Shown one piece after another: positions 51,316 through 59,046 of a DNA stretch of 64,000 bases; the stretch's first letter is position 1; the number at the start of each line of letters is the position of its first letter. Made by a program: the position numbers and the translations under genes. The stretch is from Allomeiothermus silvanus DSM 9946 (GTDB lineage Bacteria; Deinococcota; Deinococci; Deinococcales; Thermaceae): assembly GCF_000092125.1 (NCBI RefSeq), contig NC_014212.1, positions 392,001-456,000 of the forward strand. Reading direction: 5' to 3'. A model generated the notes under the pieces. It did not search any database. It was given only the letters and a program-made list of their open reading frames with translations, and was not told the DNA's origin.

Positions 51316-51319
<4 letters not shown>
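50879..51319 (+). CDS. Unknown four- to five-helix membrane protein
   Basis: The 146-residue protein has hydrophobic segments at about 22-40, 46-66, 72-86 and 103-140 and no recognised family motif. ATG 50879. The last codons overlap the end of lysZ on the other strand by four bases, so they are convergent. No function can be proposed. Confidence 0.65.
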
Positions 51320-53910
<2,591 letters not shown>

Positions 53911-53913
53911 ATC

Positions 53914-54759
53914 CTACCCCTTCCGCAGGCTCCAGGCGTACTCGAGGATCTTCCCCGGGATGTCCACGCCGGTGGTGCTCACCGAGTTCTTGAACTCCAT
54001 GGTGTGGTTGACTTCGTTGACCAACAGCCCTCGCTCGCTCTCGAAGAGGTCGATGGCCACCACCCCGCCCCCCACCGCCTGGGCAGCCCGTACGGCGACG
54101 TCGGCGAGTTCGGGCGTGAGGGGGCAGTTCGAGGCCTTGCCGCCGCGGGCGGTGTTGGTGATCCAGTGCTCGGAACTACGGTAGATGGCCCCGATGCAGG
54201 TGTTTCCCACCACGAAGGCGCGGATGTCGCGGCCCGGCTTGTTTACCAGCTCCTGGATGTAGTAGAGCTGGTGTTGGTAGCCGCCCAGAACCTCCTTGTG
54301 CTCCAAGACCGTCTCGGCGGCGTCGCGGTCGTTGATCTTAGAAAGCAGCCGGCCCCAACTCCCCACCACCGGCTTCATCACCACCGGGTAGCCCATCGCC
54401 TCGATGAGCTTGAGGGCTTCCTCGGCTTCGGTGGCGAGCGCGGTGCGGGGCTGCGGCACGCCGTGGGCCTCGAGGGCGCAGCTGGTGGCCCACTTGTCGC
54501 CGCAGACCTCGATCACCTCGGGGCGGTTTACCACCGGGATGCCCAGGCTGCTGAGGTAGCGGCTTACGGCCAGGCCCTTGCTCTGGCTCACTAATCGCTC
54601 GACGGCGCAGACCACGCCCTCGAGTTCGGCGGGGCGCTTCCCCAGATGCATGGGAAGCTGTTTGGCGTAGATCTTCTTGAAAGGGATGTCGAGCCGACGG
54701 GCGGCTTCGAAGAGCATCTCCTCATCGGGGCGGATACGGTCGTAGAGGATGGCTAGCAT
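53914..54759 (-). CDS. lysX: LysW--aminoadipate ligase
   Basis: LysX is the ATP-grasp enzyme that joins aminoadipate to the C-terminal Glu of LysW. The 281-residue protein has the RimK/ATP-grasp layout: [18 protein letters not shown] (ATP-binding loop), [30 protein letters not shown] and the metal-binding [18 protein letters not shown] 54759. It sits 77 bases downstream of lysW in the cluster. Confidence 0.94.
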
Positions 54760-54836: not shown

Positions 54837-55010
54837 CTACTCTCCCCAGTCTTCCGCTTCCTCAGGGGCAGCCTCGAGCCGGGGTGGATCCAGGCTCACT
54901 ACCTCAAACTCCATGCCGGTCTCGTCGTCCACCACGATCTCGCCCAGCTCGGGGTTCTCCAAAACGATCTCTGCGCCGGTTTCCGGGTTGATAAAGGTGA
55001 CTTTTGCCAT
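54837..55010 (-). CDS. lysW: Amino-group carrier protein LysW, cysteine-less
   Basis: A 57-residue acidic carrier. It ends in EEAEDWGE, the conserved tail whose last Glu is joined to aminoadipate. The middle [10 protein letters not shown] and [12 protein letters not shown] also match LysW. In Thermus LysW two CxxC pairs bind zinc; here the matching sites read NPET and DDET, so all four Cys are absent. AAGGAG precedes the ATG. It is probably functional because the tail is intact and the gene is in the right place, but the fold must hold without zinc. Too short to be found by length cut-offs of 60 residues. Confidence 0.92.
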
Positions 55011-55061: not shown

Positions 55062-55391
55062 TCAGTTCAGGTATTCCGGTTCTCCCTCGTCCTCGTGAAC
55101 CTCTGACCAATCCGGCACGAAGGTGAAGCCGCAGTTCTCGCAGGTTACCGGCTCGCCTTCCTCGTCCGCCGAAATCGCGATCTGGGTTTCGCAGCGGGGG
55201 CAGTCCACGTAGAACTCGTGCAGATCGCCTTCCACTACCAATAGCTCGAGCGGTTCAATGGAGACGACCTCGAGGGTAGCCCCGCACGAAGGGCAGTCCA
55301 TCACGTCGCCTTCGGCAAGCGTGTCGTACTCTTCGGCAGACATATAGTTGGCCTCACCGCAGACCGGACAACTCACCTCGACCTCGTCCAT
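55062..55391 (-). CDS. LysW-like double zinc-ribbon protein
   Basis: The 109-residue acidic protein has two zinc ribbons, with CPVC (8-11) and CPSC, then CPRC and CENC. Around the first ribbon MDCPSCGATLEVVSIEPLELL strongly resembles LysW (Cys-containing) followed by the EVV-x-x-PL region. It does not end in EDWGE but in EPEYLN. It lies between hacB and lysW with short gaps. It may descend from a LysW duplication or act with LysX/Y/Z as a separate metal-binding partner. Function unknown. Confidence 0.75.
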   Translation of the reverse strand: MDEVEVSCPVCGEANYMSAEEYDTLAEGDVMDCPSCGATLEVVSIEPLELLVVEGDLHEFYVDCPRCETQIAISADEEGEPVTCENCGFTFVPDWSEVHEDEGEPEYLN

Positions 55392-55412: not shown

Positions 55413-55913
55413 TTACGACGGACTCTCGCCCGGGAATCTTCCATGCTTTTTGTAGTACTCCAAGATCGATCCCTCTTTGAGGGCCTCGAGAAGGAAATCG
55501 GGTGGGGGCTTGAGCTGGAAAGTCTCCGTGCCCCGTTTGAGAATGCCCTTCTCGAACTCGAGTTCTACCTCGTCTCCGTCGTGCAAAGCGTCCACCACCT
55601 CAGGAGACTCGAAAGGCATGATACCCAGGTTGACCAGGTTGCGGTAGAAGATGCGGGCGTAGCTCTTGGCGATGATGGCCTTCAAGCCCAGCTTCTTCAG
55701 TGCTTCTGGAGCATACTCACGCGAAGAGCCCAGGCCGGTGTTCTTGCCACAGACCAGAATGTCGCCCGGTTTGTAGTCGGGAGCAAATTCGGGGCGAAAG
55801 TGGGCGAAGGCGTAGGTGTGGAACTTGTCCTCCCCGACCATAAAGGGGGCGTATTTCCCTGGCAGGATGTCGTCGGTGTTGATCGAGTCGCCAAATTTCC
55901 AGATGCGTGCCAT
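55413..55913 (-). CDS. hacB: Homoaconitase small subunit
   Basis: This is the swivel domain partner of HacA in the conversion of homocitrate to homoisocitrate. The 166-residue product has WKFGDSINTDDILPGKY at the N-terminus and GLGSSREYAPEAL (substrate-binding Ser-Arg), as in LeuD/AcnD-like small subunits. Start ATG 55913; a six-codon-longer reading is not needed. It follows hacA by 18 bases. The homoaconitase role over isopropylmalate isomerase is inferred from the lysine cluster (lysU of Thermus). Confidence 0.92.
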   Translation of the reverse strand: MARIWKFGDSINTDDILPGKYAPFMVGEDKFHTYAFAHFRPEFAPDYKPGDILVCGKNTGLGSSREYAPEALKKLGLKAIIAKSYARIFYRNLVNLGIMPFESPEVVDALHDGDEVELEFEKGILKRGTETFQLKPPPDFLLEALKEGSILEYYKKHGRFPGESPS

Positions 55914-55931
55914 TCGGTCTCCAAAAGCCAC

Positions 55932-57203
55932 TCAGGCGTCTTGCGTCTTGCGTCTTGCGTCTTGCGCGTTTAGCTCCTCCGGCGTGCTGATGAACCCGGC
56001 CACCGCGCTCGCCGCCGCCACCCTGGGAGAAGCCAGGTAGATCTCTGCGTCCGCCGCGCCCATCCGCCCCCTGAAGTTGCGATTGGACGTGCTGACGCAG
56101 ACCTCGCCCGGCGCCAGCACCCCCTGGTGGCGGCCCATGCAGGGCCCGCACCCCGGCGTCCCCAGCGTGGCCCCGGCCTGCAGAATCGTGAGGAGCGTGC
56201 CGTCGGCGGTGGCCTCCTCCAGCACCTGCGACGAAGCCGGGATCACCAGCATCCGCACACCCGGCGCGACCCTGCGCCCGCGCAGCACCTCGGCCACCTC
56301 GTGCAGGTCGTCGAGGCGCCCGTTGGTGCAGGTACCCACGAAGACCTGGTCCACCTTCTTGCCCATCACCGAATCTACCGTGTGCACGTTGTCCACGTAG
56401 AAGGGCACCGAGACGCGCGGGGTCAGGGCCGAGAGGTCGATCTCCACCTCGCGCACATAGGTGGCATCCGGGTCCGGGTAGAGCCAGCCGGGCACGTCGT
56501 AAAGCTCCAGGATCTCGCCGCTGGGCACCACCAGCCCGCACTTGGCCCCGGCCTCCACGGTTAGGTTGGCCAGGGTCAGACGCTGGCTGCGGGTGAGGGA
56601 CTCGGCGCCGTCCGCCAGGTGGATCTCCACGCTCATGTAGGTGGCTCCATCGGCGGTGAGGACCCGGACCATCTCAAGCGCCGCGTCTTTAGCGCTCACC
56701 GCGGGGTTCAACCGGCCCCGGAAGGTCACCTTCACGCTCTCGGGCACCCGCAGCCAGGTGCGCCCCGAGGCCGCCGCCAGCGCGATGTCGGTGGCCCCCA
56801 TCCCGCTGCCGAAGCAGGCCACGCCGCCGTAGGTGGTGGAGTGGGAGTCTGAGCCCAGCACGATCCCGCCGGGCAAGGCCAGCCGCTCCTCGATCAAGAC
56901 CTGGTGGCAGATGCCGCGCCCCACGTCAAAGACTGGGCAGCCATAGCGTTTGCCCCACTCGCGGATCTCCTTCTGCGCCTTGGCCACCTCCACGTTGGCC
57001 GCCGGGGCTACGTGATCGATGACGATAGCGACCTTCTCGGGGTAGCGGGGGGTGGCCCCGAGCTGCTCGAGCCGCTTGAAGAAGCTCCCGGCGATGGAGT
57101 CCACCACCATCACCTGGTCCACCTCCACCACCACCAGCTCACCCGAGCGCACCTCGCGCCCGGCCCGCTGGGAAAGGATTTTTTCGGCTAGGGTTAGGCC
57201 CAC
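55932..57203 (-). CDS. hacA: Homoaconitase large subunit
   Basis: The 423-residue [4Fe-4S] dehydratase subunit. Cluster ligands are the Cys in VGTCTNGR and the pair in GCGPCMG. GSDSHSTTYGG and TSNRNFRGRMG are family motifs. Pathway: homocitrate to homoisocitrate through cis-homoaconitate in alpha-aminoadipate lysine synthesis (lysT of Thermus). LeuC is the alternative, but the neighbours are lysine genes. The last ten residues come from a 7-base tandem repeat and are likely dispensable. Confidence 0.93.
   Translation of the reverse strand: MGLTLAEKILSQRAGREVRSGELVVVEVDQVMVVDSIAGSFFKRLEQLGATPRYPEKVAIVIDHVAPAANVEVAKAQKEIREWGKRYGCPVFDVGRGICHQVLIEERLALPGGIVLGSDSHSTTYGGVACFGSGMGATDIALAAASGRTWLRVPESVKVTFRGRLNPAVSAKDAALEMVRVLTADGATYMSVEIHLADGAESLTRSQRLTLANLTVEAGAKCGLVVPSGEILELYDVPGWLYPDPDATYVREVEIDLSALTPRVSVPFYVDNVHTVDSVMGKKVDQVFVGTCTNGRLDDLHEVAEVLRGRRVAPGVRMLVIPASSQVLEEATADGTLLTILQAGATLGTPGCGPCMGRHQGVLAPGEVCVSTSNRNFRGRMGAADAEIYLASPRVAAASAVAGFISTPEELNAQDARRKTQDA
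55936..55963 (-). repeat. Four tandem copies of a 7-base repeat at the hacA 3' end
   Basis: Four perfect copies of GCGTCTT (plus strand) plus a partial fifth. On the minus strand they encode the last residues of HacA (QDARRKTQDA). Copy-number change would alter the frame at the stop codon. Confidence 0.9.
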
Positions 57204-57213
57204 CTCGACCTCC

Positions 57214-57228
57214 TATAATCAGTGTATG
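57214..57228 (+). promoter_or_regulatory. Leaderless promoter of hicBA
   Basis: TATAAT (57214-57219) is followed by exactly six bases and the hicB ATG (57226). No Shine-Dalgarno sequence. A good -35 box is not seen. The geometry matches aat at 843-857. Confidence 0.55.
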
Positions 57229-57456
57229 AAACGCAGGTACTGGGTACGCGTCTACGAGGATCCGGAAGAGCCGGGGGTCTGGCTGGCGGAAGTCCCGGCG
57301 GTTCCTGGGGTTCATTCCGACGGCGATACCCGCGAGGAAGCCATCGGCAACGTTTTGGAAGCGCTCGAGGGGATGCTCGACGCGCTGAAACGCCAGGGTC
57401 TTCCGATTCCTGAGCCGGATGGGGAGTGGGTAGAGGTGGAAGTGAATGCCGCCTAG
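57226..57456 (+). CDS. hicB: HicB-family antitoxin
   Basis: The 76-residue protein has the HicB partial RNase H-like fold: [20 protein letters not shown], then [20 protein letters not shown]. There is no C-terminal DNA-binding helix-turn-helix of the longer HicB type, so it is a short antitoxin. It overlaps the hicA start by 11 bases. The pair sits between the homocitrate synthase-like gene and hacA, on the opposite strand to both. Confidence 0.85.
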
Positions 57457-57628
57457 GCCGGATGAGGTGGCCCGCAAGCTCAAACGAGCTGGGTTGGTCG
57501 AGGGCGGGCGCTGTTTTTGCCAGCACCCCGACGGGCGAACCCCCGTAATCCCCTTTCACAGCGGCGAATTGCCCAAAGGCATCTTCCGGAAAATCCGCAA
57601 AGATGCTGGGATCAGCGTGGAAGAGTAG
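57446..57628 (+). CDS. hicA: HicA-like mRNA interferase toxin, catalytic His absent
   Basis: The 60-residue protein fits HicA in length and in [22 protein letters not shown], the C-terminal family motif. In active HicA the core reads GSHHxF-x-x-PDGR with a catalytic His; here the matching residues are [12 protein letters not shown], so that His is replaced by Arg. Either the toxin is inactive or the His just before PDG takes over (inference). ATG lies inside hicB. Confidence 0.8.
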
Positions 57629-57649
57629 GGCAATCTCTGACATAGTCTT

Positions 57650-58891
57650 TCAGTCCAGGTTCTCCAAGCGGGCGGTAGGCACTTCCTCCGGCAGCGCGTG
57701 CTTGCGGATGCCGTGGGATTGGGCGAGCTCGAGCAGCAGTTCCTCGGGCTTCTTGCTGCGCCCGATCTCGTGGGTGCGGCTCTTGAACTCCTGGGTGATC
57801 TCCTTGGCCTGCTCCTTGGTGATCTCGAGCGCCTCGACCTCCTTGAGGTAGTAGTAGATCAGGTTCCAGCCCGATAGCGGCCCCAGCAGAAGTTGATTTT
57901 TGTCTACCCCGAAGTCGTGCAGGTTGTGGGCTTCGTAGACCTTCTTTTCGTTGAGTACCGCTTTTTGGTGAACTCCGGCGGTGTGGGTGCGGTTGGTGAG
58001 GGAGACCGGCTCGGTATAAGGTACCAGGGTGCCCAGAATCGAGGCCATGAGCACGTTGAGGGGGTAGCACTGGCTGAGCTGGTACTGCTCGGCCAGGTCG
58101 GGGTAATGCTTGAAGAGGTTGAACAAGACCCCCGTCACTGAGGGGATACCCGAGCGCTCAGCGAGGCCCCAGATGGAGGCATCCACGTAGCGTACCCCCG
58201 CCCGCACCGCAGCCAGCACGTTGGCGAGGGCTAGGCCCCGGTCGTTGTGGAAGTGGCATTCCAGCTCTACCTCGGGGTAACGCTCCCGTAAGGCGTTTAC
58301 CAGATCCCTCACATCCTCCGGCTCGGCCATGCCCACCGTGTCGGGCAGGCCCAGGGTGTTGACGTAGGGGGAGACGGCGTCGTATAGCCGGAATAGGTCC
58401 TGGCGTGGGGTGCGGAAGACGTCCTCAGCGCTGAACCGCAGGTAAAGGCCGGGATAGCGCGCGCGGGTGTTCTGCAGTACTTCTTTCGCCAAAGCTATGG
58501 CCTCTTCGAGGCTCTTTTGCGCATTATGCCGCTGGGCCAGCGGCGAAACTCCCAGATAGAGGTTGAGCCCATTGCAGCCGACCTCGAGCGAGCGCTCGAT
58601 ATCCTCGGGGTGGCAGCGGCAGTGGGCCAACAAACGCAACTCGCGATCGGTGAGGCTCTTGGCGTAGGCGATGAGTTCGCGTACGTCTTGCTCTTCAGCC
58701 ATGCCCACCACCGGGGAGAAGAACTCGATGTGGGTGACTCCCAGCTCGATCAAGCCCGCCAACAATTGCTTTTTCTCCTCGAGGGTGAAGCGGTACTTCT
58801 CGGTGTCAAATAGCAGCGGCGATTGCTGGCCGTCGCGGAAGGTAGTGTCCACGATCTCGATGCGCCTAAGGTGTGTTTGGCTGTTGCCCAT
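57650..58891 (-). CDS. Homocitrate synthase-like protein (HMGL-like family)
   Basis: The 413-residue protein is a TIM-barrel acyltransferase with VDTTFRDGQQSP (first metal/substrate loop), LRFSAEDVFR, LPDTVGMAEP and the metal-binding pair in LECHFHNDRG. ATG 58891. Homocitrate synthase adds acetyl-CoA to 2-oxoglutarate as the first step to lysine. Thermus homocitrate synthase starts with DSTLREGEQ and is shorter (376), so this is a different branch that might also be 2-isopropylmalate or citramalate synthase-like. The leader with Lys codons and the lysine cluster downstream favour homocitrate synthase. Confidence 0.75.
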   Translation of the reverse strand: MGNSQTHLRRIEIVDTTFRDGQQSPLLFDTEKYRFTLEEKKQLLAGLIELGVTHIEFFSPVVGMAEEQDVRELIAYAKSLTDRELRLLAHCRCHPEDIERSLEVGCNGLNLYLGVSPLAQRHNAQKSLEEAIALAKEVLQNTRARYPGLYLRFSAEDVFRTPRQDLFRLYDAVSPYVNTLGLPDTVGMAEPEDVRDLVNALRERYPEVELECHFHNDRGLALANVLAAVRAGVRYVDASIWGLAERSGIPSVTGVLFNLFKHYPDLAEQYQLSQCYPLNVLMASILGTLVPYTEPVSLTNRTHTAGVHQKAVLNEKKVYEAHNLHDFGVDKNQLLLGPLSGWNLIYYYLKEVEALEITKEQAKEITQEFKSRTHEIGRSKKPEELLLELAQSHGIRKHALPEEVPTARLENLD

Positions 58892-58910: not shown

Positions 58911-58981
58911 AAAAACCGGCCCGCTGGGTTGGCGGGCCGGGATACGCACTCGCGCGGACTAGCTCAGGCTAGCCCCCCGGC
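58911..58981 (-). promoter_or_regulatory. Transcription attenuator of the homocitrate synthase-like gene
   Basis: Intrinsic terminator: CCGGCCCGC (58932-58940 on minus) pairs with GCGGGCCGG (58916-58924), then five T (58911-58915), 20 bases before the ATG. Upstream hairpin: 58968-58975 with 58956-58963 (eight pairs including one G-U, four-base loop). Competing pairing: GCCGGG (58976-58981 read on minus), inside the leader ORF just after the Lys codons, is complementary to CCCGGC (58936-58941) in the terminator's 5' arm. A ribosome stalled at the Lys codons would thus allow read-through. Confidence 0.78.
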
Positions 58982-59008
58982 GCTGGGTTTTTTTGCACTT
59001 AAGATCAT
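58964..59008 (-). CDS. Leader peptide with tandem Lys codons
   Basis: ATG 59008 opens 14 codons, MILSAKKPSAGGLA, to TGA at 58964-58966. Two adjacent AAA (Lys) codons sit at 58988-58993. The ATG is about nine bases after the -10 box, so it may be translated leaderless; no Shine-Dalgarno sequence is seen. Leader-peptide control of lysine genes by attenuation has been described in Thermus thermophilus. The product is regulatory only. Confidence 0.72.
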   Translation of the reverse strand: MILSAKKPSAGGLA

Positions 59009-59017
59009 CCTGGAAGA

Positions 59018-59046
59018 AGGGTATACAAGTAGCCCGGATATGTCAA
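59018..59046 (-). promoter_or_regulatory. Promoter of the leader and homocitrate synthase-like gene
   Basis: -35 TTGACA (59041-59046), 17-base spacer, -10 TACCCT (59018-59023); TATACC (59020-59025) with a 15-base spacer is the alternative. It lies just past the uppS stop, so the lysine gene is separate from uppS. Confidence 0.6.

Follow-up and report, generated by a model that had tools for sequence, protein, structure and literature searches.

The DNA analysed here, hereafter the window, is a 64,000-nucleotide stretch of the Allomeiothermus silvanus DSM 9946 genome (3 contigs, 3.72 Mb). Its minus strand carries a series of genes, from hcs to lysZ, that judged by sequence is the operon for the AAA (alpha-aminoadipate) lysine pathway. 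The first gene, hcs (57650-58891), encodes a homocitrate synthase of the Meiothermus type with 413 amino acids. The product is HMGL-like and contains an HCS_D2 domain, and its top curated family is homocitrate synthase TIGR02146, although the score is under the cut-off of that family. Its closest solved structures are homocitrate synthases, including that of T. thermophilus. Further along the same strand are hacA (55932-57203; homoaconitase large subunit family), hacB (55413-55931; homoaconitate hydratase small subunit, above the equivalog cut-off), lysW for the amino-group carrier protein (54837-55010), lysX (53914-54759), an argC family gene that is probably lysY by its position (52122-53162), and lysZ for [LysW]-aminoadipate kinase (51316-52416). 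The true start of lysZ is probably internal, because the family match begins at residue 98. A TauE-family gene is also listed in the set, on the same strand between lysX and the argC-type lysY. If the genes are co-transcribed, the whole lysine gene set could be under one leader.

Two other minus-strand reading frames lie among these genes. A 149-amino-acid ORF between hcs and hacA (57194-57643) has no Pfam or NCBIfam match and a Pro/Arg-rich C-terminal part, and it may result from a frameshift or have been called too long. Just before lysW, a LysW-like protein of 109 amino acids (55062-55391) contains two zinc-ribbon-like stretches.

The first-pass annotation had described a promoter, a 14-codon ORF with adjacent AAA Lys codons, a hairpin and a terminator in front of hcs, and all of these are present on the minus strand. 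The -35 element, TTGACA (59041-59046), is identical in 22 of 22 relatives. A 17-nucleotide spacer separates it from the -10 element TACCCT (59018-59023), which has the form TANNNT and is located 9 nucleotides upstream of the leader ATG. All 22 Meiothermus-type relatives have a TTGACA-17/18-TANNNT promoter. A simple sigma-70 scan of the window did not detect the one in front of hcs because TACCCT matches TATAAT at only three of six positions. The spacing from the -10 element places the likely start of the leader transcript at the leader ATG or a few bases before it, and this short distance suggests that the peptide is read from a near-leaderless mRNA. In the Deinococcus-Thermus group, -10 motifs located 6-7 bp before ORFs are common, as are leaderless mRNAs (PMC12340547).

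The leader ORF (58964-59008) encodes the peptide MILSAKKPSAGGLA with 14 sense codons, running from the ATG at 59008-59006 to the TGA at 58966-58964 (ATG ATC TTA AGT GCA AAA AAA CCC AGC GCC GGG GGG CTA GCC TGA). The tandem Lys codons AAA AAA (58988-58993) are the putative sensor. AAA is the minority Lys codon, accounting for 145 of 551 (26%) in the long ORFs of the window, and yet every leader with the KK pair uses AAA AAA. The 5' arm of the antiterminator, GCCGGG (58976-58981), starts 12 nucleotides past the first base of the first Lys codon, and it is followed by hairpin 1 (58956-58975; GGGCTAGC CTGA GCTAGTCC), which carries the stop codon in its loop and is seen in Meiothermus-type leaders. 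Hairpin 2 (58944-58955) is weakly supported, with 4 bp in this genome and 3 bp (CGC/GCG) in the clade. The 3' arm of the antiterminator, CCCGGC, occupies 58936-58941; both arms are thus exactly where they had been placed at first pass. This 3' arm overlaps by 5 nucleotides the 5' arm of an intrinsic terminator hairpin (58916-58940; stem 58940-58932/58924-58916) with nine G-C pairs and a loop of 7. The U-tract TTTTT (58911-58915) ends 19 nucleotides upstream of the hcs ATG at 58891. The terminator comes after the promoter and before the first structural gene, as expected for an attenuator. A single place in the window combines a short ORF with AAA AAA, a GC hairpin and T4, and none of 100 first-order Markov copies contains this combination. 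On the plus strand, a terminator-like hairpin with T7 (58969-58986) corresponds to the A7 run of the leader and is probably incidental.

These features very probably form a ribosome-mediated, lysine-codon transcription attenuator that senses the supply of Lys-tRNA and that is homologous to the hcs leader of Thermus. When charged tRNA-Lys is scarce, the ribosome would stall while a Lys codon occupies the A site. Its leading edge would then be just before GCCGGG, leaving this arm free to pair with CCCGGC. Such pairing would engage the base of the 5' arm of the terminator, and polymerase would continue into hcs. With lysine in good supply, the ribosome would proceed to the stop codon and cover GCCGGG, and the terminator would form. 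In the Meiothermus version, the antiterminator is a helix of 6-7 bp that closes a three-way junction, the other two arms of which are hairpins 1 and 2. The parts themselves, their conservation and spacing, the compensatory pairing and the lysine operon downstream are seen in the sequences, and from them stalling, the on/off outcome and the role of lysine as the signal are inferred.

The element is found upstream of hcs in 22 of 22 family genomes that carry the Meiothermus-type gene (Meiothermus, Calidithermus and Allomeiothermus types). The parts shared by this set are the 17-18-nucleotide promoter spacer, GCCGGG, hairpin 1, CCCGGC and the terminator, with a single leader having GCCGTG in place of GCCGGG. 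The leader ATG is mostly 6-11 nucleotides past the -10 element, and in the short peptides codons 6 and 7 form the KK pair, with Pro or Ser as the next residue. Seventeen of the 22 leaders were used to build a covariance model, which finds a single site per Meiothermus-type genome, upstream of hcs. It also matches 12 Thermus genomes, with E values of 0.005-0.1, and 11 genomes in family f4, where E is as low as 5.5e-8; those of the matches in these two groups that were inspected are directly upstream of hcs. An extra weak match in genome G063 is probably spurious. In the remaining Thermus genomes and in the genus that is sister to Thermus, the leader was found on inspection, such that every Thermus genome examined has it. 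Two f3 genomes have an equivalent leader, read by eye, with the peptides MLVISASKKQLSGDLG and MFSAKKPSSEDASA. The covariance model has no match at the hcs loci of two Deinococcales MAGs, where inspection reveals the same architecture with Lys codons that are fewer or non-adjacent. In total, the comparative set comprises 54 distinct leaders. The KK pair, as AAA AAA, is invariant in every f1 and f4 leader examined, and its spacing to the antiterminator is also kept there.

Thus, the first-pass proposal of ribosome stalling and antitermination is well supported by comparison, through the conserved KK codons, the spacing, the compensatory antiterminator changes, the conserved terminator and the lysine operon downstream. 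Relatives retain both the Lys codons and the terminator, whose loss in close relatives had been named as a finding that would speak against the proposal. Its assertion that this form is restricted to one genome was wrong, since the form is common to all 22 Meiothermus-type genomes and has homologues in Thermus and other families.

Four f5 genomes (L113, L115, L119 and L121) have a different design upstream of hcs, namely a Lys-containing ORF of 9-15 codons. The peptides are VKFCPKKSK, MVCRKQKPS, MKSFRLKQKPKSKAV and VNLARCRKSSKF, with start codons and terminators assigned by eye. The Lys codons fall in the loop or an arm of a hairpin that resembles a terminator, so that a ribosome stalled on them could block it directly.

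The antiterminator helix was evaluated over eight pairs in 23 distinct arm pairs, which were placed in the pairing register by manual alignment, a procedure that favours the structure; 89% of the positions form standard pairs, compared with 42-63% when the arms are slid. Both sides have changed at three pairs, namely pair 6, where five have AU in place of GC, and pairs 7 and 8. As a measure of covariation, the helix scores 0.143 versus 0.085 +/- 0.010 (sd) in shuffles, none of 500 of which reach 0.143, although scores of this kind are inflated by related sequences. The signal stems from variation of the seventh pair and from the other clades. Within the Meiothermus-type clade, no covariation was found in the 6-bp core, which is nearly invariant; at the seventh position many leaders pair as G-C, G-U or A-U and others are unpaired. 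In an unconstrained duplex scan of this clade, the antiterminator duplex for the most part does no better than shuffled GC-rich sequence. The cognate arms form the most stable or longest helix in Thermus and f4-O leaders and the longest in f4-P. Changes on both sides of the stem among relatives also support the terminator.

The ribosome's leading edge lies about 12-13 nucleotides past the first base of the A site. In families f1 and f4 the antiterminator 5' arm starts 12-13 nucleotides past the first Lys base, which is where the front edge of a ribosome awaiting Lys-tRNA should lie. We also predicted folding at 37 °C with a ribosome masking the RNA at the first Lys codon or at the stop codon, taking as readout the probability of the two outermost terminator pairs. 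Predicted values with the ribosome at the first Lys codon versus the stop codon are 0.07 versus 0.98 for Thermus and 0.02 versus 0.98 for f4-O. The Meiothermus-type clade exhibits a partial switch (0.42 versus 0.91), and in f4-P the terminator is predicted to be favoured even with the ribosome at the first Lys codon (0.95). For the leader in the window, the predicted values are 0.96 and 0.98, without switching at equilibrium. The antiterminator is mutually exclusive with the terminator and its 5' arm is just downstream of the Lys codons, as in other attenuators, but its energetics are weak here. Compensatory changes across clades uphold the pairing proposed at first pass, but it had gone unnoticed that the equilibrium fold in this genome disfavours it. 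Before the 3' arm of the terminator exists, the predicted fold of this leader is the antiterminator three-way junction (-29.1 kcal/mol). Because the terminator beats the antiterminator at equilibrium, antitermination in this genome would have to be kinetic, and this is the least secure step of the model. With no ribosome, the predicted terminator probability is about 0 in Thermus and f4-O, and is 0.79 at 37 °C and 0.64 at 55 °C in the Meiothermus-type clade. Since the ribosome-free Thermus and f4-O leaders would be nearly devoid of the terminator, translation would be needed for termination, which amounts to a default-on design.

One possibility is that the conserved three-way junction binds lysine or a protein directly, much like a riboswitch, and that the ORF is incidental. 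Conservation from KK to CCCGGC is 0.72-0.92, compared with 0.16-0.68 from the promoter to the ATG and 0.75-0.88 for the hcs coding sequence; conservation of this core exceeds that of the promoter spacer and often that of the coding sequence, and hairpins 1 and 2 have well-conserved loops. However, the leader matches no known riboswitch or other RNA family in Rfam, either at the gathering threshold or at E up to 1. Furthermore, the homologous leaders of Thermus and f4 lack the junction and keep only KK, the spacing, the antiterminator and the terminator, and AAA AAA is retained despite the minority status of this codon. We consider direct binding to be very improbable.

The chances are slimmer again that the element is a plain terminator or a constitutive attenuator, for example of the upstream uppS gene, accompanied by a chance ORF. 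The terminator is indeed strong, and uppS is located just upstream in this genome and in Thermus, but the hcs promoter precedes the terminator. The whole element is also retained in Meiothermus genomes in which no uppS was detected upstream, and a chance ORF is hard to reconcile with KK codons and spacing that do not vary in f1 and f4. We give the least credence of all to the idea that the A7 run, present in most Meiothermus-type leaders, promotes slippage (transcriptional, or -1 frameshifting as at the slippery run of T. thermophilus dnaX) rather than starvation stalling. Only A6 (AAA AAA) is present in several Meiothermus-type, nearly all Thermus and most f4 leaders, and no downstream frame would be served. 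Attenuation by a ribosome stalled at Lys codons is therefore the reading that we prefer.

Under the attenuator, the regulated enzyme differs among lineages. The homocitrate synthase of Thermus and f4 is a different one; in Thermus it matches the T. thermophilus structures and is 33% identical to that of the window. The Meiothermus-type enzyme is also found in the two Deinococcales MAGs (L063 and L064), with 75-76% identity. The uppS gene is located upstream of the leader both in Thermus and in the genus of the window, and in Thermus leaders (e.g. L088-L100) its TGA stop codon overlaps the -35 element TTGACA of the hcs promoter. Because the same leader, preceded by uppS in both groups, is followed by enzymes with only 33% identity, the sequence comparison indicates that homocitrate synthase was replaced by a distant homologue beneath a conserved leader, which stayed in place. 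Perhaps Meiothermus-type bacteria remodelled an ancestral Deinococcota attenuator, turning a long antiterminator into a three-way-junction stem of 6-7 bp that works only kinetically, and replaced hcs without losing the switch, with Thermus and its relatives being default-on and needing a ribosome to finish a near-leaderless peptide for termination. We offer this joint reading tentatively, and place its chances somewhat below even.

A leader-peptide attenuator of the T. thermophilus lysine gene cluster (hcs) is said to have been described by Tsubouchi et al. in 2005 in J Biol Chem. A literature search for a description of the hcs leader in Meiothermus found none. The covariance-model matches and the upstream uppS gene indicate that the leader described here is homologous sequence at the same place as that of Thermus. 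Both share the gene position, the lysine operon, the uppS neighbour, the promoter form, a 14-codon peptide with KK at codons 6-7, the antiterminator arms and the terminator. In contrast, the antiterminator here has 6-7 bp and closes a three-way junction, whereas that of Thermus has about 11-14 bp; the terminator is predicted to win at equilibrium here, and the downstream homocitrate synthase is of a different subfamily. The lysine riboswitch (L box, RF00168) likewise controls lysine genes by transcription termination, but its covariance model finds no sequence or structure match in this leader.

As in the enterobacterial trp, his, thr and ilv attenuators, codons for the end product occur in a leader peptide, and the antiterminator and terminator are mutually exclusive. 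Unlike those systems, the Thermus and f4 forms have no clear 1:2 protector hairpin, the start of the leader ORF is near-leaderless, and there is no match to an Rfam leader family. Moreover, ribosome-free folding predicts readthrough in Thermus and f4-O, which is the reverse of superattenuation in trp. The basic mechanism is already known, and what is new is how widely it occurs, the reshaping of the antiterminator and the exchange of the regulated enzyme. A lysine attenuator reported in one species is extended to most Thermaceae and several related families, and the 54 distinct leaders form a comparative set for testing how attenuators evolve. The comparison also points to a regulatory leader that outlives the replacement of the enzyme under its control, and it suggests near-leaderless translation of a leader peptide and, in Thermus, a default-on logic that is unlike the textbook trp case.
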